Shown piece by piece: positions 2,196 to 19,462 of a stretch of 64,000 bases of DNA; position 1 is the stretch's first letter, and each line of letters starts with the position of its first letter. Both the position numbers and the translations under genes were made by a program. The stretch is from the NCBI GenBank assembly GCA_036504735.1, contig DASXUQ010000005.1:775377-839376 (forward strand), in the 5' to 3' direction. The notes beneath the pieces are model-generated. The model had not been told where the DNA came from, did not search any database, and worked only from the letters and a program-made list of their open reading frames with translations. The DNA is from a bacterium (GTDB taxonomy: Bacteria; Electryoneota; RPQS01).

Positions 2196-2235
2196 GGCGA
2201 TTTCAGCGTTTCAGGTTTTCAGTGTTTCAACGTTT
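2196..2235. repeat. degenerate AAACGCTGAAA micro-repeat
   Basis: Read on the minus strand this stretch has AAACGTTGAAACACTGAAA followed by ACCTGAAACGCTGAAA, an array of RAAACNYTGAAA units. It lies just past the stop of the metalloprotease gene. The same unit occurs in both copies of the tandem duplication at 15355-15496, also directly downstream of a stop codon. Confidence 0.6.
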
Positions 2236-4402
2236 ATTTGATGAGCGCCATCTTGCTCATCGCCGTGTATTCGGGCGAGGTCAGCCGGTAAAAATACAAA
2301 CCGGAAGCCAGCCTGGAGCCGTCGAAGGTCACGTCGTGGCGTCCCGCAGCAAGAGTCCCGTGAACCAGTTCTTTCACCAGCCGCCCCTCAATGTCATACA
2401 CCTGCAAGCGAACGTCGGTCGCGCGCGGCAGATCAAATGAGATCGTCGTGGTGGGGTTGAACGGATTCGGGTAGTTCTGCGCGAGGTGATAGGCCACGGG
2501 CAGTTGCAGCGGGTGATCATCCGCTGCCGCGGGCGTAGCCGTGCCGCTGACGTACATCGTGTCGGGAGAGTACAGCCCGTTGTGATGGATCAGGATCATC
2601 GCCTGGGCCGCGCCTTCAGCCGTGGGCATATAGCGCGGATAAAAGAACACCGTCTGGCTGGGATTAATGGTCAAGGGAAGATTCAGGCGAAGACCGAACG
2701 GCGCCGGGACATCCACGGAGGTGATCGTCAGCGGCATATTTCCGATCACGCGGACGGGCACGCGCGTACTGTCCGCGCTGCCGACCGGGACCGATCCGAG
2801 ATTCACCGTGTTCGAGGTCACAAATTGCAACCACGCGCCAATCGCGACACCTGTCAAGGGACACTGTAGCGAGCCGCCCGGGCCGTCATGAGTAATGGTC
2901 AGCGTTCCTGTCTGCGTGCCCAATGACGCTGCGGTAAAGGTCACGGTAACGGCCGTGCTGTCATGCGGCGGAATGGAAAACGGCGCGGACGGTGATACCG
3001 TAAACTGCCCGACGACGTCAACGCCGGTAATCTGCCGCGTATTGGGCGAATTGTTGACGAGATAGGTCGTCACATTCCGCTCAACGTGCACGGTAGTGGT
3101 GTCAAATTCAATGGCACTCAGAGACAGATACGGATCATACAAGTTGTAAATCGTGAATTCCAACTGGTAGAGTTGCACCGCGTCGGAGCCTGATCCCACC
3201 ACCCTCGCCTTGTAGCTCGCGCCTGAAGCCGGAACCGGGTACCGGAAGATGCTCTCGGCTTCCCCGGCGGCATGGCTCGTGGATTGAACCAGCAACGTGT
3301 TTCCGCTGGCATCGTACAGCGCCAGATCAAGATTCAGACTGTTCAAGGTATTGATCGGCGTGCCCGCCGAACAGCTTCCATCCTGGTTCTGCTGACCGTT
3401 CAGATACGTGCGGCCGACGGGCTGCAGAACAAGGTTGAAGCCCTTTCCAGCCGGAACGGCAAAGGAGTAGTAATCGATGTCACTGGTGTGGTCGAGTCCG
3501 ACGGTTTGGACGGTGCTGTCCTGAGACAGACTGCCAAGGGGCGTGGCCGTGGCGGCCGTGTTGTTCGGCTCGTAGCGGTCGCCATAGTTACGCTGGCCGG
3601 CGCGGATATCATCGTGCTGCGGGCCATCAAAGGCCGACGTGTAGAACGGCTCCAGCAGTTTGGTCTGCTCGATAGGACAGACGTGCTCGAGACCAAGACC
3701 GTGGCCGTGCTCATGGGCCAGCACGTTGCGCAGGAAGATGTAGTCTCCGCCCGCCTCCGCCCAGTTCTCGGATGCATCCAAAACCATGTCGCCCATATCA
3801 GGGAAGAAGTCATAGGCCAGCACATTAGAGGCACCGTCCAGAGTCTTGGAACCGATCCGGACGTCCCCACGGGTACCGAGGATTCCTCGCGAGTTGCCAA
3901 ATGCCGCGCCGTCATCGGACACCTGTACATAGCGCACGCCGCTGACATTACTCCACTCAGCAAAGATCTGTGCAAACTTGGCCTGCCAGACCGCCGGGCT
4001 GCCGAACAGAGCGTTCATCCGCGAAAACAGCACACTGCCGGAAGATCCCCAGTTATCCGTTATGGTTGTTCCATCGGGGATAAAGCTGTAGGTCAGGGTA
4101 ATCGGATGACCATCCGAACCGGTGTTGCCGTTGGTCGCAGTCTGACTCCAGCGTCCACCGAGGAAGTAATCGAGAGCGCCATGGCCCCAGATCGCCCGCT
4201 GCACACTGGCAACCACACTGTCAGGAGTTCCGGGGGCAAAACAGACATCCATCGGAGACAGTTTCGAATCGGAGGCCGCCTCGGTTTGGACCGGAGCGGG
4301 CAGAATGAGGCTCAACGACGGTTGGGCGGGACGATAATATCCGCCAAAAAACACCGCGAGCAGGAGGCTGAGGCTTAAGGTGGGCAGCGCAAAGCGTCTC
4401 AT
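2234..4402 (-). CDS. secreted zinc metalloprotease with PPC, choice-of-anchor and type IX sorting domains
   Basis: 722 residues from ATG 4402 (GGAAG 8 nt upstream; an upstream extension gives no signal peptide). N-terminal signal sequence, then a metzincin-like protease domain with HEHGHGLGLEH at residues 230-240 (HExxHxxGxxH: His230, His234, His240 bind zinc, Glu231 is catalytic). A pre-peptidase (PPC) domain follows, starting YEPNNTAATATPL, then two Ig-like modules of choice-of-anchor D/ASPM type (around LGTQTGTLTITHDG and the following repeat). The C-terminus has NYPNPFNPTTTISFDLP and ends in a Por-type sorting domain. The protein is expected to cross the inner membrane via Sec and the outer membrane via a type IX system. 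It is transcribed divergently from the FN3 cargo gene at 4852. Its peptide specificity is unknown. Confidence 0.85.
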   Translation of the reverse strand: MRRFALPTLSLSLLLAVFFGGYYRPAQPSLSLILPAPVQTEAASDSKLSPMDVCFAPGTPDSVVASVQRAIWGHGALDYFLGGRWSQTATNGNTGSDGHPITLTYSFIPDGTTITDNWGSSGSVLFSRMNALFGSPAVWQAKFAQIFAEWSNVSGVRYVQVSDDGAAFGNSRGILGTRGDVRIGSKTLDGASNVLAYDFFPDMGDMVLDASENWAEAGGDYIFLRNVLAHEHGHGLGLEHVCPIEQTKLLEPFYTSAFDGPQHDDIRAGQRNYGDRYEPNNTAATATPLGSLSQDSTVQTVGLDHTSDIDYYSFAVPAGKGFNLVLQPVGRTYLNGQQNQDGSCSAGTPINTLNSLNLDLALYDASGNTLLVQSTSHAAGEAESIFRYPVPASGASYKARVVGSGSDAVQLYQLEFTIYNLYDPYLSLSAIEFDTTTVHVERNVTTYLVNNSPNTRQITGVDVVGQFTVSPSAPFSIPPHDSTAVTVTFTAASLGTQTGTLTITHDGPGGSLQCPLTGVAIGAWLQFVTSNTVNLGSVPVGSADSTRVPVRVIGNMPLTITSVDVPAPFGLRLNLPLTINPSQTVFFYPRYMPTAEGAAQAMILIHHNGLYSPDTMYVSGTATPAAADDHPLQLPVAYHLAQNYPNPFNPTTTISFDLPRATDVRLQVYDIEGRLVKELVHGTLAAGRHDVTFDGSRLASGLYFYRLTSPEYTAMSKMALIK

Positions 4403-4851
4403 GGATGAATCTTCCGTTAGTTGTACACGATCAACTGTTTGCACGACGCGAGGCAGACCTCGCAGGGCTTCCTAAGTTACGGCAGAATTTTGACGTGTGC
4501 AAGTCCCGCGGAGGGAAATTGATAGGTCTCCAGCGGCGAGTCACAAGACATAACAGTTGCCGATTGGAAAGAATATGAATATTATAATTTTTTCGGAGCA
4601 ATTCAGTGTTTCGATGATATGTAGGTCTCTGATTCTGCTCCATGCGGTCCATCTGTTTTTAAAAATCGTAAATCAGAGTTGATTTTTAAGCTTGCATAGT
4701 TGATATTATATTGTTTTTTAGGTAGGGTAGAACATAATCCAACCTGACGCAGTCGTATAGTGGTGGATCTGCGGTATATCCCTGATAATTCATCGTTTAT
4801 AACATATTAAGGCCGTTCCATGTGGGCGGCAGAAAACCATCGGGAGCTGCT
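4403..4851. other. AT-rich divergent intergenic region
   Basis: 449 bp between two divergent secreted-protein genes. It is markedly more AT-rich than its surroundings, especially 4560-4740, as expected for divergent promoters. A small inverted repeat (AAAAATC / GATTTTT, around 4661-4687) is the only structure I see. I could not pick convincing -35/-10 pairs and found no coding potential. Confidence 0.5.
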
Positions 4852-6270
4852 ATGAAGATTTCCAAGACATTGTTGTTCGCCCTCTTCTCGTTGGCGTTGG
4901 CAGGAATGGCATTCGGCCAAGGATCGATTTCCATCGCCTATTCCAACGACAATGGCAATCCACCTTTAGGGTATCCGTGCGCCATCCCCCGCACTGCCTT
5001 TGCTCAGGGAACGATCATCGCCATTTACTGGGACGCCAACGGAAATGGCCCCGATGATACAGATGTGCAGCCCGTTGTGTCTCCCGACACTGCCGCCAAC
5101 TTCAATACCCAAGTGATCAACGGCGAAGATATGGGTATTGGTGGGGATGGCTACTTCCTGTTCGATGGCTATTTTCAGGTCACTATCCTGCCGGAAGTCC
5201 CCCGCTATTACCTGCAAATCTCCCGGCCCGATCCCAACGGCGTCTGTTGGCAATCCGATGTGTTCACTCTGGTCCAGGGTCCGCAGGAATGGTTGATGAC
5301 GCCTGCCGAATGGCATTGCGTCGGCACTCCGTGCCACGTTACAGGTACGGTTCCGGCCGCTCCGACCAATGTGACTGCCACCGTAGATACGCGTTGCTTG
5401 TCGGTCCAGTTGTCATGGCAACACCCCTTGACCAATGAGTCCGGATTCAACATTTATGCAGATGGTATCCACGTCTACACGGCCAATCCGGATTCCTTGG
5501 CAGCGACTCTTGCGGTAATAACCGAAGGCCCCCGTTCCTACTATGTAACGGCTATCAACAATGTGGGCGAATCCGACACGTCGAATCACGCTGTAGGCAG
5601 CACCTATCTGGTTCGGTTGAACGATGACACTCTGACCAACGTCCACGGCGACAGTCTGCATGGCCGAACGGTTACCGTTTGGTTCAATCAGCCGCCCGAC
5701 ACGACCCCCGGCCCCTGCGACTTTTCAGCCGATATCTGGCTGCTGCGTGACATTTCCCCCAGCCACATCGGTACATGGGCTCGCTTCGGCACTGCCCCAA
5801 TCGCTCACGATTCGTCGACAGATTCCATGAGTGTCATTTTGCCCAATGACACGACCATCAACTTCTGCCGCCTGCTTCTGGTGGATAGTTCCTATGGCGC
5901 TGCGGTCACTTACACCGACACAACAGATTCCGTGTTCCATCTTGGAAATCCGTTCGCGACGGGCTTGCCGGGCTTCCACAGCGTGGCACCCAGCTCTTTC
6001 GATCTCGCGCAAAACTACCCGAACCCCTTCAACCCCACCACTCAGATCGAGTTCTCGGTTCCGGTTCAGGCCGAAATCCGCATCAAGGTGTACAACATTA
6101 TGGGCCAGGCTGTCCGTACCCTCGTGCAAGGAACGTATCCTGCCGGCATCCATAAGATCACGTGGGACGGCAAATCCGATGCAGGCATCTCCGTCGGCTC
6201 CGGCGTCTACATCTATCGGATGGAAGGTCAGAAGTTTACGCAAGTGAAGAAGATGCTTCTGATGAAGTGA
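4852..6270 (+). CDS. secreted FN3 protein with novel N-terminal domain and type IX sorting domain
   Basis: 472 residues from ATG 4852 (GGGAG 6 nt upstream; an upstream GTG at 4822 is less likely because it precedes the signal peptide). Signal peptide ends near AFGQ. Residues about 25-161 form an unrecognised domain with GTIIAIYWD, YYLQISRP and WHCVGTPC (154-161). A counterpart is found at the N-terminus of the 1930-residue protein at 55826-61618, with the same motif at the same residue numbers. One FN3-like module follows (around PAAPTNVTATVDTRC), then a linker domain, NYPNPFNPTTQIEF and a Por-type sorting tail ending KKMLLMK. This FN3 keeps only the first of the two cysteines seen in the large paralogue. 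It is probably a surface or secreted structural protein. Confidence 0.8.
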   Translation: MKISKTLLFALFSLALAGMAFGQGSISIAYSNDNGNPPLGYPCAIPRTAFAQGTIIAIYWDANGNGPDDTDVQPVVSPDTAANFNTQVINGEDMGIGGDGYFLFDGYFQVTILPEVPRYYLQISRPDPNGVCWQSDVFTLVQGPQEWLMTPAEWHCVGTPCHVTGTVPAAPTNVTATVDTRCLSVQLSWQHPLTNESGFNIYADGIHVYTANPDSLAATLAVITEGPRSYYVTAINNVGESDTSNHAVGSTYLVRLNDDTLTNVHGDSLHGRTVTVWFNQPPDTTPGPCDFSADIWLLRDISPSHIGTWARFGTAPIAHDSSTDSMSVILPNDTTINFCRLLLVDSSYGAAVTYTDTTDSVFHLGNPFATGLPGFHSVAPSSFDLAQNYPNPFNPTTQIEFSVPVQAEIRIKVYNIMGQAVRTLVQGTYPAGIHKITWDGKSDAGISVGSGVYIYRMEGQKFTQVKKMLLMK

Positions 6271-6382: not shown

Positions 6383-6934
6383 TTACTTCGCGTCGTAGGC
6401 CTGCTTGACGATGCCGGCGATCTCCAAAGCATTGCTCGCGGTCTGCAGCGGGATCTGCTTTTCTTCGGCAATCTTCGTAAAAAAGCCGTCATCATTGCCG
6501 CCCTTAACCACGATAATCTTCGCCGCATTCTCGGCGCCAATCTGGTTGAAGGGATCGGACAGCGCGCCGCGGCGGTTCATGCCGCCAAGGTGCACAGCCA
6601 ACACCGGCACATTGGCCTTGTGCGCCGCGTCCAGCAGGGCGTTGACCCGCGCGGATTCGTCTTCAGCGCTGATCTTCGCCGCGCCCAGTCCCTTGCTGCT
6701 GCCGCCGATCACCACAATCAGCGAGCCTTTGCCTGCGACGTCCGCGGCCTTGGCATCGGGCACATAGGAAAAGTTCAGCGAATCGCGCGTAAGCAGGGTC
6801 TTCATCATCAGTACGTCGGCACTCTGGCCGCAGGATGTCAGGAGGATCGGTTGGGCGAAGCCGCCATCCGCCGCAAAAAGCGGCAGCGCCGCCGCCAGAA
6901 GAAGGACGGCTGTTACCATCACACGTTGTCTCAT
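6383..6934 (-). CDS. secreted DUF6305-like protein
   Basis: 183 residues with a clear Sec signal peptide (LLLAAALPLFAADG). The mature part reads as an alpha/beta Rossmann-like domain: PILLTSCGQSADVLMMKTLL, LIVVIGGSSKGLGAA, VPVLAVHLGGMNRRG, AKIIVVKGGNDDGF. From memory this resembles the DUF6305 family, a periplasmic family of unknown role; I could not confirm this. It is the last gene of the nine-gene run and lies 28 nt after the aspartoacylase-like gene. The mix of solvent-exposed glycine loops and a periplasmic location suggests ligand binding, but no substrate can be inferred directly. Confidence 0.6.
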   Translation of the reverse strand: MRQRVMVTAVLLLAAALPLFAADGGFAQPILLTSCGQSADVLMMKTLLTRDSLNFSYVPDAKAADVAGKGSLIVVIGGSSKGLGAAKISAEDESARVNALLDAAHKANVPVLAVHLGGMNRRGALSDPFNQIGAENAAKIIVVKGGNDDGFFTKIAEEKQIPLQTASNALEIAGIVKQAYDAK

Positions 6935-6962
6935 CGTCGTTGTCCTTTATCGTGAGATTCAG

Positions 6963-8123
6963 TTACCGGGATCGCGGCGCCAGAAATGCGCCAAGTCCCC
7001 GAGTCTGCACTTCGTCATAGGTGGGAATGTCGGAAACCTCCATCGCCTTGTCCGGCTTCACAAAGGCCAGGCCGTCCATTAATGCGCGCACTCCGGCTAA
7101 ATGCCGTCCCACGCGCACGCCGACAGGAATTCCCGTCGAATCGTACGGCACGCGCAGCAGATTGGCGCGGGCGGCGGACAAATAGCAATCGTCCTTGCCG
7201 CTTAATATTTTCTCCGCGGACGTCCGGCTGCGCAGGCGGCCCTGCATAATGTTTGCCGACTCCATCAGCACCGCCAGTGCAGGCGTGGCATCGCCCAGTT
7301 CGCGGTGAGTCAGTCCGTGAAAATTCTGCGGGGACGGTTCCAAATTGAAACTCAGACCTTCGCCCTGCAGCGTGAGATTAGCTGTAGCGGCAAGGTCCAT
7401 CGCCTTCTCGTGGGCGACAATCGCGTTGATCACCGGATACTCGGGCGAAGCTTCATGCAGGTCAATCACCAGATCGGCCTTCTCGGCATTGACCAGAGAA
7501 GTAATGGCAAATGCCGCGCGCTCGGTAAAATTGCCGTCGGACCTGCCGGGGAAAGCGCGGTTCAGATTGCGCGTTTCATTGCCCGAGAGTTCCTGCCCGG
7601 ACGGATGATGCAGGTAGACTTCCGGATCAGGCCATTGATCAAGCGGATTCGTAAAACGGCAACCCATGCGGAAACGGCGCGGTCCGCCAGCCGTCGCAAT
7701 CTCGAAGCTTGCAGGATGCCCTTCGCCGGGCTCGGTCTGAGTAAAGGCCGAATGATTCGCGCGAGGCAGAACAATCAGCCGTCCGCGAGTCACGGTAGCA
7801 TTTTCCAGCAGCACATCCGCCGCCAGCACTCCGGCAACTTCATTGGGATGGGTCCCCCCCAGCACCACGGTGGTCCCGCCGGATTCCTTGCCCTCGAAAA
7901 TATACACGTCTCCGTCGGCCCGCGTGCCTTTGATGCCCGCAAAATAGTCCGACAGATGCTTGTGCGCGGTCATCCCCTTAGACGGATACAGCGGTTCATC
8001 GCGCCACGCCTTCAAAAAATCCCGCGAGGCCATCGCACACACGCTCAACACCACCAGCAGCAGCACAATTCCCGTGTAGGGGCGCACAGCCGTGCGCCCG
8101 TCTTTTGTTTCCGCGTTCGTCAT
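6963..8123 (-). CDS. membrane-anchored aspartoacylase/succinylglutamate desuccinylase-like (M14-type) hydrolase
   Basis: 386 residues from ATG 8123, which overlaps the stop of the 55-aa upstream gene (ATGA). An earlier in-frame start would run antisense-like through that gene and is rejected. One N-terminal membrane segment (TGIVLLLVVLSVCAMA) precedes a zinc hydrolase domain. Its motifs are GGTHPNE (His92 and Glu95), NLNRAFPGRSDG, and DLVIDLHEAS (His223), matching the HxxE...H zinc site and NLNR(x)FPG motif of the AstE/AspA branch of M14. These enzymes cleave N-acyl amino acids or related amide bonds. The membrane anchor suggests a periplasm-facing enzyme, unlike classical cytoplasmic AstE. 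In context with GGT and the PgsW-like gene, a gamma-glutamyl amide substrate is plausible but unproven. Confidence 0.75.
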   Translation of the reverse strand: MTNAETKDGRTAVRPYTGIVLLLVVLSVCAMASRDFLKAWRDEPLYPSKGMTAHKHLSDYFAGIKGTRADGDVYIFEGKESGGTTVVLGGTHPNEVAGVLAADVLLENATVTRGRLIVLPRANHSAFTQTEPGEGHPASFEIATAGGPRRFRMGCRFTNPLDQWPDPEVYLHHPSGQELSGNETRNLNRAFPGRSDGNFTERAAFAITSLVNAEKADLVIDLHEASPEYPVINAIVAHEKAMDLAATANLTLQGEGLSFNLEPSPQNFHGLTHRELGDATPALAVLMESANIMQGRLRSRTSAEKILSGKDDCYLSAARANLLRVPYDSTGIPVGVRVGRHLAGVRALMDGLAFVKPDKAMEVSDIPTYDEVQTRGLGAFLAPRSR

Positions 8124-8287
8124 TTGATCAGCAGCACCCGCAGCACAAAGGGAATCAGGGCCAGGGCTGCCGTGACTTGCACGCGCCAGTCCTTGCCCCG
8201 CAGCAGTTCGCGTACGAGCAGTACACCGGTCGCAAGCGCGATCAGCCAGTAGCACCAGAAGAGAACTATCGAGAGAATATGATACAT
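8120..8287 (-). CDS. 55-aa two-helix membrane protein
   Basis: ATG at 8287, stop TGA at 8120-8122, which overlaps the next gene's ATG in an ATGA junction. The product starts MYHILSIVLFWCYWLIALAT, a hydrophobic helix, then a charged loop RELLRGKDWR and a second hydrophobic segment ending FVLRVLLIK. It sits 9 nt after the membrane protein gene at 8297-9166. Size, two helices and translational coupling suggest a small transporter or enzyme subunit, possibly a partner of the TRAP-like permease at 9628. I do not recognise a family. Confidence 0.7.
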   Translation of the reverse strand: MYHILSIVLFWCYWLIALATGVLLVRELLRGKDWRVQVTAALALIPFVLRVLLIK

Positions 8288-8296
8288 GTCGTTCGG

Positions 8297-9166
8297 TTAT
8301 TCGGCGGGGGCCTCGACCGGCTCCGCCACAATCGCGGATTCTTTGACCAACAGCTTCGTGTTGCGGATATACCAGCGGAACATCCACGTCATGAACCACG
8401 GCATCCACGTACCCCAGAGGATGAAGAGGCCGATGACATTCGCATGGTGGATCTTGTCGAAATCGAATCCGGTCGCGGGAGAAAACCAGCTCAGCAGCAT
8501 CGTCCCCATGTCTGATAGTGTGAGGCCCGAAACCAGAAGAATGAGCAGCAACGGCAAAACGAAGAACAGAAATCCCAGACCAAGTAGTTCAAGGGGCTTT
8601 CCGACCCATTGCAGTTCCGCGTCGTCGCTCTCCATATGCCGGTAGACCCAGCGCTGAATGGCCACCTGCACCCACGGCCAGCCAACCACTGTGAATACGG
8701 AAGCAGCGGACAGCACCTGCAAACCAATGTACGTTCGCGGGCTGCCCGTGAACCGAAACCCGATGGAGCCGCGCAGCCGCAGCCCTTTGGTAAACCAGCG
8801 AATCACCACCCATGATACCCACGCGCCCAGCAGCAGCGACACGATCCCCAGCAAAGGTCGAAACACAGGGTCGTGCACCTGGCCCCGCATGAGATCGAGA
8901 ATCCCCAGCGGCGGAAACCAGTACCAGATTTCCTTCGGACTGCCGTCGAAGGTAAAGACAGAACCATCATCCGGATTGACCTTGCGCGCCAGCCAGCGGC
9001 GAAAACTGCGCTCCCACCATGCCATCGGGATGGAAAACGCAAGGAACGACACCAGCCAGACAATACCCCACCCCAGCATGTCGAATCCGTCCCCCGAGAA
9101 GCGCAGCTTCACATCGCGCAGCGGTTCCCCGCGCAAGCCAATGCTCGAGCTTCTGTCCCCATCCAT
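8297..9166 (-). CDS. multi-pass membrane protein, DUF898-like duplicated module
   Basis: 289 residues, ATG 9166 with AAGGAG upstream. About five to six hydrophobic segments are visible. The protein contains an internal duplication. LRFSGDGFDMLGWGIVWL and GFRFTGSPRTYIGLQVLS each start a unit that ends in a charged W-rich stretch (WWERSFRRWLARKV; QVAIQRWVYRHM). The RFSG start followed by a membrane helix resembles DUF898 (YjgN) family proteins, whose function is unknown. It is co-directional and closely spaced with its neighbours, so it is probably part of the same operon. Confidence 0.6.
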   Translation of the reverse strand: MDGDRSSSIGLRGEPLRDVKLRFSGDGFDMLGWGIVWLVSFLAFSIPMAWWERSFRRWLARKVNPDDGSVFTFDGSPKEIWYWFPPLGILDLMRGQVHDPVFRPLLGIVSLLLGAWVSWVVIRWFTKGLRLRGSIGFRFTGSPRTYIGLQVLSAASVFTVVGWPWVQVAIQRWVYRHMESDDAELQWVGKPLELLGLGFLFFVLPLLLILLVSGLTLSDMGTMLLSWFSPATGFDFDKIHHANVIGLFILWGTWMPWFMTWMFRWYIRNTKLLVKESAIVAEPVEAPAE

Positions 9167-9219
9167 GTTCAGCTCCTTCAGAATAGTGGGAGGAATGTGC
9201 CGAGATTCTTCAAGCGCAG

Positions 9220-9618
9220 TCAGCGCTTGCTCTGTTTCTGTTCCGCCCGCAGCTCGTTATCTTTCATCCGGGCTTTGACGATCTTGCGGACGAGCGACGC
9301 AGGAAGCGGATTATCGACCGAGAAATGGATGGTCGTCCCGGAAATTGTGTAACGCTCGAGATCGCTGCGTAACGTCTTCAAAAGGGCTTTGCTCACGGCA
9401 TACAGGCTGCAATGGTTTTCCCACGCCGCAAAAAAGAGCAAAGGTCCGTGATACTTGAACGCCGGCATCCGGTAGCTGATCACCTCTTCAGCCTGGGGTG
9501 CGGCCGCTTTGATGGTCTTCCGAAGCTTCTCCAGCATACCCCGCACATCGTCGGGCAACGCCGCAAGATAGGAGTCTACATCCTTGGCTACAGCGCTCTG
9601 CGCCGGTGTCTTCTTCAT
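9220..9618 (-). CDS. DUF1801 (YdhG-like) domain protein
   Basis: 132 residues. The sequence follows the DUF1801 pattern: an N-terminal helix DVDSYLAALPDDVRGMLEKLRKTI, then EEVISYRMPAFKYHGPLLFFAAWENHCSLY and ISGTTIHFSVDNPLPASLVRKIVKARM. Members of this small soluble family (YdhG/YjbR-like fold) have been linked to iron handling in some bacteria, but generally have no assigned reaction. It lies 9 nt after the TRAP-like permease stop with its own Shine-Dalgarno AAGGCGG. It may be a passenger rather than a functional part of the gamma-glutamyl cluster. Confidence 0.8.
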   Translation of the reverse strand: MKKTPAQSAVAKDVDSYLAALPDDVRGMLEKLRKTIKAAAPQAEEVISYRMPAFKYHGPLLFFAAWENHCSLYAVSKALLKTLRSDLERYTISGTTIHFSVDNPLPASLVRKIVKARMKDNELRAEQKQSKR

Positions 9619-9627
9619 ACTGCCGCC

Positions 9628-10929
9628 TTAGCTCAGTCCGAGCAACTTCCCAATCGGGTTCGCCAGCAGGATCATTCCCATTCCCCACAGAATCGAAAGG
9701 ACAATGGGAATCAAGCAGAACTTCAGAATGCGGTTTGGGGTCTCCTCCACCACGGGCGCAGACAGGACCACTGCAAGCCGCGTGGGAGGAAGAAAATCGC
9801 CGACAGATGCGAGGAGCGACAGTGCCGCGGCGACAATAATCGCATTCTGCTGAAGCAATGCCAGCAGAAAAGGCACGCCCAGCACGCTCGACGAACCATA
9901 GGCAGACACTCCGCCGAAGAACGGCACGAACAGCGCCATGCTTACATACTGCCAGACGCGCGGCAGTTCCAGCGTGTGCACTACAATGAAGCCGCGAGCG
10001 CCGGTGAGCGTCAGAATCTGAATGAACATGCCGATACCCGCCAGCAGACCGACAATCGGCAGCGCCTGCCGAATTGCCCACGTGAGAGCGCCATCGACTT
10101 TCACGCGGTCTCCGGTGAACAGCCCCAGCACTCCGGAAAGCACAAACATCAGCGGTACGCCGATGTACGGCACATATTTGGGAAAGGATTTCGCGCCGAA
10201 GAGCAGCGCCAGCAGGAGCAACAGCGGCAGGAAGAGCTTGAAGCCGTGGTCCGGATAGCGCGATGGCGGAAGGTTATCCAGCACATCGGCATTCGCCAGA
10301 CCCTTGACGTGTTTTCCGGCAATCACAAATGCGCAGACCAGCGCCAGAGGCACAGCCGCAATGAGCAGCGGCCAGCCGAAACCGACATAAGGCATATCCA
10401 CGCCCGAGCCAATGATCATCGCCGCAATGTTCACCGGCGGGGCAACCATTCCAAAGAAGGCCGCGGTGGCGATAAACGCTCCTGCCCGCGCGCGCGGCAT
10501 TCCCGCGCCGATGAGCACCGGAGCAATCATCGCGCCGGTAGTGAGCACGCACGGTGCGGTCAGCCCGGTCAACATGCCGGGAAACATCACAAACACCGTC
10601 AGCAGCACCAGCAGCAGGCGCGGCCATTTGCCCAAAGAGCGAACCGTGACCGTATTTAGCGTTGCCAGCGCGCCGGATTGTTCGAATACCGCCATGAAGA
10701 ACAGCGACGTTACCACCAGCAATATCGGGTCGAGATAGAGCATGGTCCCCTCAACCAGATGGCGGATGGCTAATCCTTCTCCAGCCACCAGCGCACCGGT
10801 AACCGCCGCAAGGGCCAACGACAGCCCGGTCGGTAAACGCAAAGCGAACACTCCCAGACAGAGCGCCGCGATCATGACAAGCAGAGTCCAGCCTTCAGTC
10901 ACCGGCAACTCCGGGATTGGGGCGGACAC
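9628..10929 (-). CDS. TRAP-type/dicarboxylate large permease-like transporter
   Basis: 433 residues starting at GTG 10929, with about 11-12 hydrophobic segments throughout. Two related halves carry the discontinuous-helix motifs typical of TRAP DctM and related ion-transporter superfamily permeases: FPGMLTGLTAPCVLTTGAMIAP...AAFFGMVAPPVNIAAMI in the first half, and GGVSAYGSSSVLGVPF...VGDFLPPTRLAVVL in the second. These permeases import organic acids with sodium. No DctP or DctQ partner gene is adjacent; the 55-aa and 289-aa membrane proteins downstream are the only candidates. Context with GGT suggests a glutamate-like or short gamma-glutamyl substrate (inference). Confidence 0.75.
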   Translation of the reverse strand: MSAPIPELPVTEGWTLLVMIAALCLGVFALRLPTGLSLALAAVTGALVAGEGLAIRHLVEGTMLYLDPILLVVTSLFFMAVFEQSGALATLNTVTVRSLGKWPRLLLVLLTVFVMFPGMLTGLTAPCVLTTGAMIAPVLIGAGMPRARAGAFIATAAFFGMVAPPVNIAAMIIGSGVDMPYVGFGWPLLIAAVPLALVCAFVIAGKHVKGLANADVLDNLPPSRYPDHGFKLFLPLLLLLALLFGAKSFPKYVPYIGVPLMFVLSGVLGLFTGDRVKVDGALTWAIRQALPIVGLLAGIGMFIQILTLTGARGFIVVHTLELPRVWQYVSMALFVPFFGGVSAYGSSSVLGVPFLLALLQQNAIIVAAALSLLASVGDFLPPTRLAVVLSAPVVEETPNRILKFCLIPIVLSILWGMGMILLANPIGKLLGLS

Positions 10930-10971
10930 ATTGAAGTGGGCTCAGAAAGAAGGTGCACGTGAAAAAGACGC

Positions 10972-11970
10972 TCAGTTTTTTTCGGCGGGCTTAGGCACAA
11001 AATAGAGGGCGGACACGCCAATGGGTGGCGGTTCAGGCGGATCGAAAGGGATTCCGGCGGACACAGCAATGTCTTCAATGTGCAGCAGGTTCAACACAGG
11101 CACACCGTCCTCGAGGAAATCGAAGATGATGCCTTCCACTTCATCCGGATCCTCGTCCCGGCCCAGAGAATCGAGAAACGGCTCAATCCACCCACCGGGC
11201 AGATCACGTCCCTCTTTGCCGCCCAGCATCGCTTGATTGCCGCCGATGTTAATCAGCAAACCGTAAGAGCGCGGATTGCCGAGTTGTTCGCGGCGCAGTA
11301 CCGCCTGTTTGCGCGCCGAGGGAGATTTCAAAATCGTGTAGCCCAGCCGCTCCGCTTTGGTACGCAGCATCCAGCGGCTCTCTTTGGAAATTCCACCGCC
11401 GACATCTCCCGATCCCCCCAGCGTCACAAAATTGCTGTGACTTTTCAACAGATGCTGACGGACCAGATAATCTTCTATGTCCACCCAGGTGAAGTCTTCC
11501 TGATTCGCGCCGTAACTCGACGCGCCCAGCGAGCAGACGCGCAGCGAGGCTACGTTGAGCGTCTCCAGCGCCATCAAGACGGCAAGGTTCATACCCGGAA
11601 ACGATCCGGTCATGGTCACCAGCACCGTGTCGCCGGTGCCGATGCCATGATCCACCAGTTCGCGCACGATGTACGCCGCAAAATCCGGATTGGTGGCTGT
11701 ACGCTTGGCTTTCAGGTTGCCGATGGTCGTAGTGATTCTCGAGTACTCCACACCCACCAGCCCCGTACGATGGGGATCCAATTCGGCATCATAGAGTCCC
11801 AGCGCCAGCTTGTGGGTATACAAAGCTTCTTCAGCGGCGCGGGTTCGCTGCGCCGCCTTGATCATCAAAGGATAGGCTGCATGGTGACGCTGCTCGGCAA
11901 AGCAGACCACGGTCCAGAGGACCGCAAGACCGGCGAGCAGGAATCTGCAGCGTAAGGTAGAACGGGACAT
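10972..11970 (-). CDS. pgsW: poly-gamma-glutamate system protein (PgsW-like)
   Basis: 332 residues from ATG 11970; a TTG at 11982 overlapping the GGT stop is an alternative start. A signal-anchor (RFLLAGLAVLWTVVCFA) is followed by the family's motif series: GVEYSRITTTIGNLKAKRT, NPDFAAYIV, MTGSFPGMNLAVLMALETL, SLGASSYGANQEDFTWVDIE and TLGGSGDVGGGIS. These match what I recall of the poly-gamma-glutamate system protein family, normally encoded next to the PgsB/CapB ligase and the PgsC/CapC membrane subunit. Neither ligase nor PgsC is present here. Instead the gene follows GGT directly and precedes a permease. The biochemical role of this family is not established. Confidence 0.8.
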   Translation of the reverse strand: MSRSTLRCRFLLAGLAVLWTVVCFAEQRHHAAYPLMIKAAQRTRAAEEALYTHKLALGLYDAELDPHRTGLVGVEYSRITTTIGNLKAKRTATNPDFAAYIVRELVDHGIGTGDTVLVTMTGSFPGMNLAVLMALETLNVASLRVCSLGASSYGANQEDFTWVDIEDYLVRQHLLKSHSNFVTLGGSGDVGGGISKESRWMLRTKAERLGYTILKSPSARKQAVLRREQLGNPRSYGLLINIGGNQAMLGGKEGRDLPGGWIEPFLDSLGRDEDPDEVEGIIFDFLEDGVPVLNLLHIEDIAVSAGIPFDPPEPPPIGVSALYFVPKPAEKN

Positions 11971-11978
11971 GGTGCCTA

Positions 11979-13748
11979 TCAATATCCGGCGGGAGCGCCG
12001 TCACGGCGGGGGTCCGCCGCACCGGTGAGCATGCCGGACGTGGTATCAATGCGAATGGCGTGTACTCCGCCAAAGTAGGAGTTGGCCGTACCGTTGGGGT
12101 AGACCTTCCACCCTTTCGCGGCCAATGTTTTCAAGGTAGTCTGCGGAATGCGATTTTCCACCACCAGCGTCTTGCCCGCGGGGAAAAAACGCGGCGCATC
12201 AAGCGCCTCATTCAGCGGCATCCCGAAATCGAGCAGGTCAATCAGCACCTGAGCCAAAGTCGGCGCGATGCGCGGCCCGCCGGGAGAGCCGATGACGAGG
12301 ATCGGCTTGCCATCTTTCCGTACAATCGTCGCCGCCATGTTGGAGGGAGGACGGTGGAACGGCGCAATCGCTTTCGGCCCGGATGGCTCCGTTCCGAAAT
12401 CTCCCATGTGATTGTTCAACAGCAAGCCAAGTTCCGGCACCATCAGACCTGCGCCGTAAAAATAGTTGATGGACTGCGTGAGGCTGACCATGTCGCCCGA
12501 ACTGTCGACCACTACCAGATGCGTAGTGTTGCCCATGCTGAACGCCCGCACCGAATCCATGGCAGTGATCTTATCCGGAACACTGTCACTCTTCATGCGA
12601 TGTCGCGCTTCAGCCGTCCAGGAATCGGAGAGCAGTTCCTTGGTGGGGGTCATGTTATAGTCCGGATCGCCGATCCACGAATCGCCGTCCTTCAGCGCCT
12701 GCCGCGAAGCTGTGGCCAGAGTTTGTATATAGTCCGCGCTGAGATGCCCCATGGATTTCAGATCCAGCGGCTCAACGAGCTTGAGAATCTCGAGCAACAT
12801 CGTGCCGCCACTCGACGGCGGAGGCAGCGTAATAATCTCATAGCCGTGGTACATGCCGCGCAGCGGCCAGCGTTCCCGCGCACGGTAATACATCAGGTCT
12901 TCGCTGTCGATAAAGCCGCCGTGAGCTTTCACGGTAGCCGCCACCTTGTCACCGATGGGCGGAAAGTAGAAATTGTCCAATCGCGTCTTGGACAGGAACC
13001 GTAGCGTTTCCGCCAGGCGCGGCTGCCTGAGTTTCTGTCCCGGTTGCAGTGGAAGATTGTCCGACAGGAAGACCTTGGCTAATCCCGCCGTGTCCGCCTG
13101 AATATCGGCCAAATGATCAAGGATCATCGCCGACTGCTTTTCGGACACGGCATACCCCGTATCCGCCAGCGCAATCGCCGGAGCCAGCAGTTCCTTCAGA
13201 GGCCGCGTGCCGAAGCTGTTGTGCATCATCTGCCAGCCGGCAGGTGCGCCGGGCACAAGCACGGACGTCGCGCCGCTGCGCTGCACCAACCGCAGCGTGT
13301 CCTTCGGATCGTTGTATTTAGCAATGTCGATACTGTGCGGCACACGCTCGCGATAGTCGATCACCGCGAAACTGTCATGCTTGGCATCATAGTACAAAAG
13401 AAATCCGCCGCCGCCGAGGCCCGACGCATGAGGTTCAACTACATTGAGCGCCGCCACGGTCGCCACCGCCGCATCCATTGCATTGCCGCCTGAAGCCAGC
13501 ACATCGCGCCCGACCTTTGCCGCCAACGGATGCGCACAGACCACCATCCCCTTGTTGGCCGAGAGTGGGACCGAATGCGCAAAGTTGGTGTCCACCGGAG
13601 CCGGAGCAGCCGATGGTGCAGAATGCTTCGGAGCCACAGCCGCCACAGGCTTCTTCGCCATCGGACCGGGCGCACAGCCCGTAGCGAGCAGAGCAATCAG
13701 CAATATCGGGCAAACAGCAGAGACGGCAAAAAGGCAGCGTGGCTTCAT
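11979..13748 (-). CDS. ggt: gamma-glutamyltranspeptidase, lipoprotein
   Basis: 589 residues. The signal ends LLATGC, so Cys25 is probably lipidated and the enzyme faces the periplasm or surface. Family landmarks: GGNAMDAAVATVAALNVVEPHASGLGGGGF in the large subunit, then the autoprocessing site at NTTH, where Thr408 becomes the N-terminal nucleophile of the small subunit. This is followed by VSLTQSINYFYGAGLMVPELGLLLNN and the oxyanion-side motif IGSPGGPRI. Gamma-glutamyltranspeptidases cleave gamma-glutamyl amides such as glutathione and, in some bacteria, gamma-polyglutamate. The gene is 33 nt after a lipoprotein gene and directly adjoins the PgsW-like gene. Confidence 0.95.
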   Translation of the reverse strand: MKPRCLFAVSAVCPILLIALLATGCAPGPMAKKPVAAVAPKHSAPSAAPAPVDTNFAHSVPLSANKGMVVCAHPLAAKVGRDVLASGGNAMDAAVATVAALNVVEPHASGLGGGGFLLYYDAKHDSFAVIDYRERVPHSIDIAKYNDPKDTLRLVQRSGATSVLVPGAPAGWQMMHNSFGTRPLKELLAPAIALADTGYAVSEKQSAMILDHLADIQADTAGLAKVFLSDNLPLQPGQKLRQPRLAETLRFLSKTRLDNFYFPPIGDKVAATVKAHGGFIDSEDLMYYRARERWPLRGMYHGYEIITLPPPSSGGTMLLEILKLVEPLDLKSMGHLSADYIQTLATASRQALKDGDSWIGDPDYNMTPTKELLSDSWTAEARHRMKSDSVPDKITAMDSVRAFSMGNTTHLVVVDSSGDMVSLTQSINYFYGAGLMVPELGLLLNNHMGDFGTEPSGPKAIAPFHRPPSNMAATIVRKDGKPILVIGSPGGPRIAPTLAQVLIDLLDFGMPLNEALDAPRFFPAGKTLVVENRIPQTTLKTLAAKGWKVYPNGTANSYFGGVHAIRIDTTSGMLTGAADPRRDGAPAGY

Positions 13749-13781
13749 GATTGGGTCGCTTGGGAAGGCAAGTGAGCGGAC

Positions 13782-14396
13782 CTACGGCTTGAGCCGCAGA
13801 TAGTGGATGGGATCGGCATAGAGCTGATCGTCTTTCTTATGATCGGACAGAAAGTCGCGCAGCTTGGAGGTAGAGGAGGTGATGACTATCGGCCCGTCAT
13901 CGGCGACATTTTCAACATCCAGCCCGCGGAGCTTGCCGGCCTCGGAAAGTCTGCGAAGCTCTGTATAATTAAGATACTGGATGGACAGAGTGTCTTGGTG
14001 GATGGTGTAGCGGATGATCGCATGCATGGGGACAAGCAACATCTGCTCGAGGATTGGACTCTTGGATTCTTGTACATCTGCCGGGCGGACATCCATGAAG
14101 GTCTGGTCATCAATGTTCGTCAGCAGCAAACTGAGGGAGCCCGAGCGTGCGGAATCACTCAGAACACTGGGTCCTTCAGTCACATCAAACTCCAGATTAT
14201 CAATATTTTCCCCAGAGATCCGCAAGGTATCGTGGCCATTTGCCCAGCCCCCCACCAGCTCTTTATCGAAAATCCTCTGGTTCAGCGCAGCCAGCGGATG
14301 GATGGACGCGACGTAACATCCTGTAAGTAGCAGGAGTAATAGGCTACCAAACGCGAACTTACCAATATACGCGAGAAACTGCTTGACCGTCACCAT
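13782..14396 (-). CDS. lipoprotein of unknown function
   Basis: 204 residues from ATG 14396, chosen because GGAGG lies 6 nt upstream and it places the signal peptide at the N-terminus. Lipobox LLTGC gives Cys27. The mature part starts VASIHPLAALNQRIFDKELVGGWANG, then shows mainly beta strands and hydrophilic turns (DTLRISGENIDNLEFDVTEG, SLSLLLTNIDDQTFMDVRP). The VGGW opening suggests a small lipocalin-like or treble beta domain, but I do not recognise a family. It is the first gene of the nine-gene minus-strand run and is 33 nt ahead of ggt. Confidence 0.75.
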   Translation of the reverse strand: MVTVKQFLAYIGKFAFGSLLLLLLTGCYVASIHPLAALNQRIFDKELVGGWANGHDTLRISGENIDNLEFDVTEGPSVLSDSARSGSLSLLLTNIDDQTFMDVRPADVQESKSPILEQMLLVPMHAIIRYTIHQDTLSIQYLNYTELRRLSEAGKLRGLDVENVADDGPIVITSSTSKLRDFLSDHKKDDQLYADPIHYLRLKP

Positions 14397-17002: not shown

Positions 17003-19462
17003 ATGAAACGCACATGGATTGGGTTGTTGGGACTGGTGTTGTTGGTCGGAGGAGTCTGCTTTGGCGGATCACCCTTGCCGCAGACGGATTTCTTTGTCCA
17101 AAATGAAGGGCAGTGGGAAGGGGCCTTTGCCTTCAAGTATGAGGGGAGGGGGGCAGCGTATTTTTTGACGGAGTCGGGGATGACGATGGATTTGCATGAA
17201 GACCCCCTTCTAACTTCCCCCACGAAGTGGGGGAAGGACTTCAGCCGTAGCCGTGATGCAGAGGCAGACAAGGGGCTAAAGCCCCTTGCCCCGGCGGTGC
17301 GTGGCCACATCCTCCGCCTATCATATGTCAACGCCAACCCCACCCCCATCCTGACTGGCGAAGACAAACTCCCCAGTTACAGCAACTACTTCCTGTCCAA
17401 GGATAGCTGTAAATGGCGCAGCCGCGTGGGACACTACCGCAGCGTGACTGCCCAAGACGTCTGGCCGGGGATTGATGTCCAATACCGCATTGCACCTCAA
17501 GGCATCGAAACCGTCTATCACGTCCACCCCGGGGCTGATCCCACACAGATTCAGCTAAGCTACGAAGGCCAGGATGCCCCCTTAGCCGTAGATGCAAACG
17601 GCAGTTTGCTCTTGTCTACGTCGCTGGGCACCGTCAAGGAACAGACCCCCTTTGCCTATCAAAATATCAATCACACTCAGGTTGAAATTTCCTGCCGCTA
17701 TGAGTTGACCGCGGATGGCAGCTACCGCTTTGTGTTGGGGGCTTATGACGCGACCAAGGAAGTAGTGATTGATCCGGAGCTGGTGTATAGTACCTATTGG
17801 GGGACAGGGAATGAAATGCAGATCGGAGGAGCGGGGACATTGGTCACAGATTCGGCCAACAATCCCATTCTTTCCGGCGACACCTTTGCCGGTGATTTTC
17901 CCACAACGCCGGGATCGTATGAAAACCAGTTTGCTGGTCACTTTGGCTTCATCAGCAAGTTCGCCGCCGACGGAAGATCATTAATCTTCTCAACCTATTT
18001 CCCCGGTGCGATTCCCTCCTTGTGCATTGATTTTGACCAGTCGCTCGTAATTGTTGATCAGGTTGTAAGGGGTTGGCCGGTCACATCAAATGGGTTTGAC
18101 ACGACATCCAATGGTCGAAGCGATTTGGCACTTGCCGCTTTGTCTGCGGACGGCAGCACGCTCTTGTGGGGGTCATATTGGGGTGGAAGCGGTGATGACT
18201 ACAAGCAAGACTTCAGCCTTAGCACTGACGGCATTCTGTGGGTAAGTACTGTAACCGAATCGTCGGATTTTCCGTTGACGGTCAATGCACTTTATTCACA
18301 GGGGGAAGGTTCCGGTGGCTATGCAGTGGCGGCCTTCGACTTGCGACATATGAATGTGGTGTTCTCCTCGTTCTTTCATGCAGGTATCCGCGGCTCGGGC
18401 AATGTCTGGATTTCTGTGACTGCACTTGCAAACAGAGCGGCGTGGATTTGTGGTATTGCCGACACCATGGGAGTTTTGGCAGTGACCCCCGATGCACTAT
18501 GTCCAAGATTCGTTCCGCCGGTGGGAAATTTCTTTGCGCGTGTCCGCCTCGATGACCCGCCAACCCTTGAGTATGCGTCTTACTTTGGTGGTCAGGATTC
18601 TTTGAGTACTGGAACGCTCCATCGCGTGATCGCTTTGGATAGCGATCACGTTTTGCTGGAAGGCTCCGTGGACGGCAGCGCTGTTGGCTTCACTATGCCA
18701 CCGGGCGGCTTTCAGGCAACTCCGCGCGGCGAGCGGGATGCTTTTCTGGTCGAGGTCACTCTCCCAGACTCAATGCTGGCTGGCACGTTCATAGGCGGAG
18801 CTGGCTCGGAGACCGTTACATGCACCGTCGTGGAACAACGCACCGGATCAATTATCCTCTGGGGCTGCACGCTCAGTGATGATTTCCCGATAACACCGAA
18901 TGCCTTCCAGCGAAGTCACCATGGCATGCCAGCCGACTATTTTCTGTCCCGGATATCTCCTGACCTGTCAACATTACGTTACAGCACCTTTATAGGCGGT
19001 TCGGATCGTGACTGGGCTCCTTGCTTGGCGAACGTCCGAGACTTGGCCTACGTGTGGGCTGGCGGTTACACTTATTCATCAGATTTTCCAACAACACCCG
19101 ATGCAATCATGCCTCCCGCACCGGGCGTATGGCCGGTGCTTGTTCGTTTTGACCTGCGGGATTCGGCGGACGTGGTCAAACCATCCGTCATCGTTCCACC
19201 TGCATCCTTCAGCCTTTCCGCCTTCCCCAACCCCTTCAACCCCACCACGACGCTTTCCTTCACGCTGCCAGCACCGTCCGAGGTGACGCTGGAGGTGTTT
19301 GATGTGCTGGGGCGGTGTGTGTATCAGAAGGAAATGGGAAGGATGAACGCGGGGGAGCAGCGGTATCGGTTTGAGGGATCGGAGCTATCCTCGGGGGTTT
19401 ACTTCGCAAAGGTGCAGGCGGGGAATGCTTCGCAGGTGAGGAAGATGGTGCTCTTGAAGTAA
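17003..19462 (+). CDS. secreted SBBP beta-propeller protein with type IX sorting domain
   Basis: 819 residues. Signal peptide (GLLGLVLLVGGVCFGG), then the conserved N-terminal domain of SBBP proteins (FVQNEGQWEG, SYSNYFLSKD, WRSRVGHYRSVTAQDVWPGIDVQY, VVIDPELVYSTYWG). A series of propeller repeats follows with the pattern YSTYFGG...DFPTTPxA (for example FSTYFPG, WGSYWGGSGDD, YASYFGGQD, YSTFIGGSDRD). The C-terminus has FPNPFNPTTTLSFTLP and a Por-type tail ending KMVLLK. The insert at about residues 72-97 is encoded by palindromic DNA and looks foreign to the domain. It is probably a secreted binding protein. Confidence 0.85.
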   Translation: MKRTWIGLLGLVLLVGGVCFGGSPLPQTDFFVQNEGQWEGAFAFKYEGRGAAYFLTESGMTMDLHEDPLLTSPTKWGKDFSRSRDAEADKGLKPLAPAVRGHILRLSYVNANPTPILTGEDKLPSYSNYFLSKDSCKWRSRVGHYRSVTAQDVWPGIDVQYRIAPQGIETVYHVHPGADPTQIQLSYEGQDAPLAVDANGSLLLSTSLGTVKEQTPFAYQNINHTQVEISCRYELTADGSYRFVLGAYDATKEVVIDPELVYSTYWGTGNEMQIGGAGTLVTDSANNPILSGDTFAGDFPTTPGSYENQFAGHFGFISKFAADGRSLIFSTYFPGAIPSLCIDFDQSLVIVDQVVRGWPVTSNGFDTTSNGRSDLALAALSADGSTLLWGSYWGGSGDDYKQDFSLSTDGILWVSTVTESSDFPLTVNALYSQGEGSGGYAVAAFDLRHMNVVFSSFFHAGIRGSGNVWISVTALANRAAWICGIADTMGVLAVTPDALCPRFVPPVGNFFARVRLDDPPTLEYASYFGGQDSLSTGTLHRVIALDSDHVLLEGSVDGSAVGFTMPPGGFQATPRGERDAFLVEVTLPDSMLAGTFIGGAGSETVTCTVVEQRTGSIILWGCTLSDDFPITPNAFQRSHHGMPADYFLSRISPDLSTLRYSTFIGGSDRDWAPCLANVRDLAYVWAGGYTYSSDFPTTPDAIMPPAPGVWPVLVRFDLRDSADVVKPSVIVPPASFSLSAFPNPFNPTTTLSFTLPAPSEVTLEVFDVLGRCVYQKEMGRMNAGEQRYRFEGSELSSGVYFAKVQAGNASQVRKMVLLK
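17214..17288. repeat. two palindromes inserted in frame within a coding region
   Basis: Palindrome 1: CTTCCCCCAC - GAA - GTGGGGGAAG (17214-17236), perfect 10-bp arms. Palindrome 2: CAAGGGGC - TAAA - GCCCCTTG (17269-17288), perfect 8-bp arms. Both lie inside the SBBP gene and keep the frame. Confidence 0.85.

Follow-up and report, generated by a model that had tools for sequence, protein, structure and literature searches.

Poly-gamma-glutamate (gamma-PGA) systems of the PgsB-PgsC-PgsW type are recognised by the profiles TIGR04012, TIGR04011 and TIGR04332, respectively. In the Bacillus pgs/cap loci, a synthetase is paired with extracytoplasmic gamma-PGA hydrolases (PgdS, gamma-glutamyltransferase (GGT) or CapD), although the ggt gene of B. 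subtilis is not linked to pgs (PMC4497714). GGTs that have no lid loop are open to polymeric substrates such as PGA, and absence of the loop has been tied to PGA hydrolysis (PMC8062742). Gamma-glutamyl chains are also attacked by PghP, a phage gamma-PGA hydrolase that is a zinc peptidase of the carboxypeptidase-A type (PMC4497714). The present locus also invites comparison with the TRAP transporters (DctPQM) and with the AstE/AspA/DoeB zinc hydrolases (PF24827). A literature search on PgsW, TIGR04332 and DUF6305 found no relevant paper. To our knowledge PgsW, DUF6305, and the permease and 55-residue protein described below have no described function, and we know of no counterpart of the latter three in the Bacillus pgs/cap loci.

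Organisation of the locus

The window, which is the whole stretch of 64,000 nucleotides that was analysed, comes from a bacterium of the Electryoneota. Its positions 6383 to 14396 are filled by nine co-directional open reading frames on the minus strand, which are, in the order from the lipoprotein to DUF6305:

13782..14396, minus: lipoprotein, 204 aa; no Pfam/NCBIfam match; local, outside the conserved core
11979..13748, minus: core gene 1, lipid-anchored gamma-glutamyltransferase (GGT), 589 aa; TIGR00066
10972..11982, minus: core gene 2, PgsW2, 336 aa; TIGR04332
9628..10929, minus: core gene 3, DctM-like polytopic permease, 433 aa; PF06808
9220..9618, minus: DUF1801 protein, 132 aa; PF08818, 54 bits; local insertion, not core
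8297..9166, minus: DUF898-like membrane protein, 289 aa; PF05987; local insertion, not core
8120..8287, minus: core gene 4, 55-aa protein with two hydrophobic segments; assigned by its position in related loci
6963..8123, minus: core gene 5, membrane-anchored AstE/AspA-type zinc hydrolase, 386 aa; PF24827
6383..6934, minus: core gene 6, secreted DUF6305 protein, 183 aa; PF19823

The intergenic gaps, in the same order, are 33, -4, 42, 9, 53, 9, -4 and 28 nt, so that the tight spacing of nine minus-strand genes described in the first-pass annotation is borne out (-4 to 53 nt). Profile searches also returned the families that it had named, with scores over the cut-offs for GGT, PgsW, DctM, AstE_AspA_cat and DUF6305; its itemised list stands apart from the DUF1801 protein, one of the nine, which it had left out. 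The DUF898 assignment is a weak one (30.8 bits for PF05987 against a cut-off of 28), and the same searches placed neither the lipoprotein nor the 55-residue protein in a Pfam or NCBIfam family. The AstE-like gene starts at 8123, within an ATGA overlap with the 55-residue gene, which corrects the earlier call, and PgsW2 starts at a TTG or at an ATG at 11970. The flanks of the cluster (window positions 2234-4444, 4822-6270 and 17003-19462) encode large secreted proteins with matches to C-terminal sorting domains (Por_Secre_tail/FlgD_ig), one of which is a matrixin-type protease.

The synthetase and the PgsW paralogues

Profile searches found neither PgsB nor PgsC among the nine cluster genes, and in this the locus is unlike the PgsB-PgsC-PgsW system with which it shares a TIGR04332 member. 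The absence of both proteins, as first reported, holds at the locus but not in the genome. A second TIGR04332 copy (C5:205221-206360) lies in a pgsB-pgsC-pgsW operon (L031 9222-12074, minus strand) of the same contig, at a distance of about 574 kb from the cluster, where PgsB scores 394 bits against TIGR04012 (curated cut-off 223) and PgsC 126 bits against TIGR04011 (curated cut-off 96). A system without a synthetase was ruled out because pgsBCW occurs in the same genome.

The PgsW protein of the window (278 bits against TIGR04332, cut-off 100) is a second, separate paralogue of the pgsBC-adjacent PgsW, and is termed PgsW2 here. The two form separate clades in a tree (support 100/99), and the window PgsW2 clade stays distinct from pgsBC-adjacent PgsW in a wider tree (98% SH-aLRT), although that tree leaves the deep branching among PgsW2-like groups uncertain and places the Acetofilamentum locus L162 on a long branch. 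PgsW2 has an N-terminal signal or anchor and has lost the C-terminal membrane helix. A further C-terminal hydrophobic segment is found in 23 of the 26 pgsBC-adjacent PgsW proteins from Gram-negative-type loci without the accessory genes, against none of the 19 PgsW2 proteins of Electryoneota. The AlphaFold2 (AF2) model of PgsW2 has a pLDDT of 94, and a fold search with it against the PDB gave no match under 1e-3.

A conserved core of six genes

TIGR04332 is present in all 39 Electryoneota genomes sampled. Within the family of the window, the order GGT-PgsW2-permease-55aa-AstE-DUF6305 recurs wherever contigs are long enough (G027, G028, G029, G030, G033 and G034), and partial copies cut by contig ends are seen in G031, G035 and G036. 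The conserved neighbourhood proposed at first pass was sought in other genomes and found, as a six-gene core in this family and as parts of the module in other phyla. A conserved unit of nine genes was ruled out, as the genes for the lipoprotein, DUF1801 and DUF898 are confined to the window, with no relatives at any other related locus in Electryoneota or the other phyla.

The AstE-like protein was found in families f1, f3 and f6 but not in f2, f4, f5, f7 or f8, and in all 18 of the 39 Electryoneota genomes do not have it; most genomes here are metagenome assemblies, in which the absence of a gene is weak evidence. PgsW2 occurs in the same three families, with both proteins in 19 genomes, only one in 3 and neither in 17 (Fisher p of about 6e-8, a value that is only indicative as the genomes are related). 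The arrangement varies, since an AstE-DUF6305 pair is kept apart from PgsW2 in family f3, and family f6 has a divergent GGT-PgsW2 pair with permease-55aa-AstE or 55aa-AstE elsewhere. In four f3 loci (L035, L045, L049 and L085) PgsW2 adjoins a conserved DUF4139-like protein of about 455 residues rather than gamma-glutamyl genes, and in three of these an MBL-fold hydrolase is also beside it; these neighbours, together with a recombinase, gave no functional lead.

The hydrolytic enzymes

The GGT scores 436 bits against TIGR00066 (curated cut-off 358) and carries a lipobox, LLATGC, at its N-terminus. Its nucleophile, Thr408, is intact within the motif GNTTH, which is invariant in 12 Electryoneota copies of the locus. 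The lid-loop insertion of the E. coli enzyme is missing, as in Bacillus-like GGTs, the corresponding region being 13-14 residues long in the window protein, in nine relatives of its family and in one f6 genome. From its sequence, the enzyme is thus predicted to belong with the lid-less GGTs that hydrolyse PGA, a likeness to the Bacillus pgs/cap loci, from which the window differs in that the cutting partner is an AstE-type zinc enzyme.

This AstE-like protein matches AstE_AspA_cat (PF24827) with 47.8 bits against a cut-off of 25, and its nearest PDB entries are 2qj8, 3cdx and 6twm, its zinc-site motifs aligning with the first two. As in other AstE/AspA/DoeB hydrolases, the zinc ligands H92, E95 and H223, the NxNR motif and E288 are kept, and H92, E95, N186, R189, H223 and E288, among them the HxxE...H zinc ligands and the catalytic Glu, are 100% conserved in an alignment of 63 relatives. 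Unlike those enzymes the window protein is membrane-anchored and has an extra C-terminal region, and with 37.7 bits against a cut-off of 402.7 for the DoeB equivalog it is not a member of a named equivalog. It shares a carboxypeptidase-A-type zinc peptidase character with PghP, which is a small soluble phage enzyme; no sequence match was found between PghP and the cluster proteins. Since the AstE-like protein and the GGT carry N-terminal membrane or lipid anchors, both should act outside the cytoplasm.

The AstE-like protein also has a weak profile match to a secreted H. pylori protein (4wcm/4wck), which we take to be the gamma-D-Glu-mDAP carboxypeptidase Csd4. This match is in keeping with a role in recycling peptidoglycan side chains, with the AstE-like enzyme cleaving gamma-D-Glu-diaminopimelate bonds and the permease recovering pieces of the stem peptide. 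Such a role is most improbable, as the presence of AstE follows PgsB and PgsW and not the cell wall, and the vast majority of the genomes sampled lack the protein.

The AstE family has further members in Bacillota. A second, shorter AstE-like protein of about 270-310 residues, with no clear role, is found in several pgs loci (L095 3909-4760 and similar). One genome (G180; L174, L175 and L176) has nine DUF6305 and nine AstE-like matches together with tandem GGT genes, and other genomes with many copies are G102 (L172, L212) and G241 (L181, L210), which suggests expansion for different substrates.

The permease and the 55-residue protein

The permease has about 14 hydrophobic segments and matches the Pfam family DctM (PF06808) with 37 bits against a cut-off of 23.8, whereas its 41 bits against TRAP_fused are far under the cut-off of 321. 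Its motifs are invariant across 10 copies. Although the match to DctM is shared with TRAP transporters, no DctP or DctQ was detected among the cluster proteins or the flanking genes scanned, and a full TRAP transporter was ruled out on this basis. The neighbouring place is taken in the window by the 55-residue, two-helix protein, whose gene sits between the permease and AstE in most related loci. One other locus (L103 14475-20661) contains two adjoining permease-55aa-AstE sets, and the very different scores of their permeases (7.6e-22 and 2.0e-128) indicate that the carrier of the module comes in two or more subtypes.

Occurrence in other phyla

When genome contigs were scanned with PgsW2, 80 loci came out, and 29 of them combine permease-55aa-AstE and/or DUF6305 with pgsB/pgsC on one stretch. 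These are mostly from Bacillota, with a Desulfobacteraceae, a Spirochaetaceae and a Mailhella MAG, and further Bacillota genomes also have the module beside pgsBC(W). The first-pass annotation had envisaged a unit that lacks a synthetase, and had itself named pgsB/pgsC next to a conserved version of the cluster as evidence against it. Just such loci are seen in Bacillota, Desulfobacteraceae, Spirochaetaceae and Mailhella, and the idea was accordingly abandoned. In the Acetofilamentum locus the arrangement is like that of the window, GGT-PgsW-permease-55aa-AstE, with pgsBCW on another contig of the genome. Loci with pgsBCW and no module nearby come from Idiomarina, Bacteroidota, Planctomycetota, Myxococcota, WOR-3 and other Electryoneota.

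Among 199 Bacillota genomes, PgsW is over the cut-off in 10, and the AstE family occurs in the same 10 and no others (Fisher p of about 5e-17, although the genome samples are phylogenetically structured and Fisher values overstate independence). PgsB is over the cut-off in 14, namely these 10 and four without PgsW, and those four have no AstE. DUF6305 is more widespread, in 29 genomes that include all 10 with PgsW. The AstE protein was detected in two of 198 Spirochaetota genomes, one with PgsB and one (G438, on a contig of 3.9 kb) without detected PgsB, and the query genome, itself with PgsB, was the sole carrier in the Desulfobacterota sample; the custom profiles were built from loci of this study, such that weak matches may escape. 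PgsB was detected in the module-bearing genomes tested except for three drafts (G036, G050 and G438), and the module is almost always found in bacteria that also carry gamma-PGA synthesis genes. That AstE is in exactly the 10 PgsW genomes of 199 strengthens the link to gamma-glutamyl chemistry.

DUF6305 and its neighbourhoods

The DUF6305 protein scores 158.5 bits against PF19823 (cut-off 25) and its AF2 model (pLDDT 91) is an alpha/beta domain. A fold search against the PDB gave nothing convincing (best E 6.5e-4, TM under 0.5), and the resemblance to dihydropteroate synthase was not taken as homology as the sequence similarity covers only about 50 residues. The fold searches were uninformative for both DUF6305 and PgsW2, and we assign neither to a class of enzymes. 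Among the loci examined from Bacillota genomes that lack PgsW, nine of ten (L168, L170, L173, L177, L182, L183, L184, L185 and L187) have DUF6305 beside a histidine kinase, and these kinases have an N-terminal domain in common. A response regulator then follows in the five loci viewed (L168, L173, L177, L184 and L185), and Opp-type peptide ABC transporter genes are near DUF6305 in L168, L173, L184 and L185. A kinase with the same N-terminal domain is encoded in the PgsBCW operons. Judged from gene neighbourhood and sequence, DUF6305, histidine kinase and response regulator may form a conserved signalling unit, and the kinase and peptide-ABC surroundings point to a sensing or binding role for DUF6305.

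The adjacency of DUF6305 to peptide ABC transporters in genomes without PgsW would also suit a general scavenging of gamma-glutamyl peptides (glutathione, dietary or environmental compounds) that is functionally unrelated to the polymer made by the cell, as would the GGT and DctM-like permease of the module and the three drafts in which PgsB was not detected. Scavenging is nevertheless improbable, given the perfect AstE-PgsW co-occurrence in the 199 Bacillota genomes, the position of the module beside pgsBC and a GGT without the lid loop, unlike those of the glutathione type.

Proposed function

The reading that fits best, and to which we give somewhat more credence than doubt, is that the locus is a split-off accessory module of the PgsB-PgsC-PgsW gamma-PGA system, through which the cell turns over its own polymer and recovers the products. 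In this view the PgsBC(W1) complex, the genes for which lie at another place in the genome, would synthesise gamma-PGA. Beyond the inner membrane the AstE-like zinc hydrolase, which is membrane-anchored, would cut the chains, with the lid-less lipoprotein GGT expected to remove N-terminal glutamates. The DctM-like permease and its 55-residue partner would take back glutamate or short gamma-glutamyl peptides, DUF6305 may bind or sense polymer fragments outside the membrane and PgsW2, without a C-terminal anchor, might play an assisting part. The analysis shows the conservation, the co-occurrence, the order of the genes, the residues of the active sites and the paralogy; we infer the substrate, the transport direction, the choice between recycling and maturation, and what PgsW2, DUF6305 and the 55-residue protein do.

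A shared gamma-glutamyl function for the cluster, as proposed at first pass, is retained in so far as a conserved unit is tied to polymer chemistry, but for a core of six genes and not for nine. The preference for catabolism and import over synthesis agrees with enzymes that look degradative, with an intact zinc site, a GGT nucleophile and no lid loop, and it is plausible that their target is the cell's own polymer. The module does not appear to be needed for synthesis, since pgsBCW is found without it nearby in many loci and AstE is missing from 18 of the 39 Electryoneota genomes. Against turnover, the permease falls short of a complete TRAP system, three drafts have the module with no detected PgsB, and in families f3 and f6 the AstE module has a locus of its own, away from PgsW2. 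Moreover, the presence of the module in every PgsW-bearing Bacillota genome sampled fits an obligatory role in synthesis or maturation as well.

The next best explanation, which we consider doubtful, is one of maturation and export, whereby the GGT would act as a CapD-like transpeptidase to attach or release chains, AstE would trim their ends and the permease would move a counter-substrate or a precursor for assembly. It draws on the same presence in Bacillota, on the operon-like contiguity with pgsBC(W) and on the precedent of CapD, a GGT-family member within a cap operon (PMC4497714). The many pgsBCW loci with no module nearby and the Electryoneota genomes without AstE speak against it, as does the distance of the module from pgsBC in the window's family. 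Carriers of the DctM type are, in addition, mostly importers.

Turnover and re-uptake of the polymer may be taken further. Tentatively, the six genes could constitute a dedicated gamma-PGA recycling machine paired with PgsBCW, in which DUF6305 and the kinase would sense gamma-glutamyl or related peptides and PgsW, as a new fold, would work in both synthesis and retrieval.

Significance

The co-occurrence described here defines a PgsW-type gamma-PGA system with its own hydrolase and permease module, the carriers of which include gut Oscillospiraceae with cultured members and several environmental phyla. Fusibacter ferrireducens and a Flavonifractor sp. are examples of cultured bacteria in which the operon is contiguous. 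The vague label of poly-gamma-glutamate system protein can now be replaced by testable predictions on polymer turnover and uptake, and DUF6305 gains a context in two-component signalling and peptide uptake. If the six genes do form a recycling machine, gamma-PGA would be a recoverable extracellular store.
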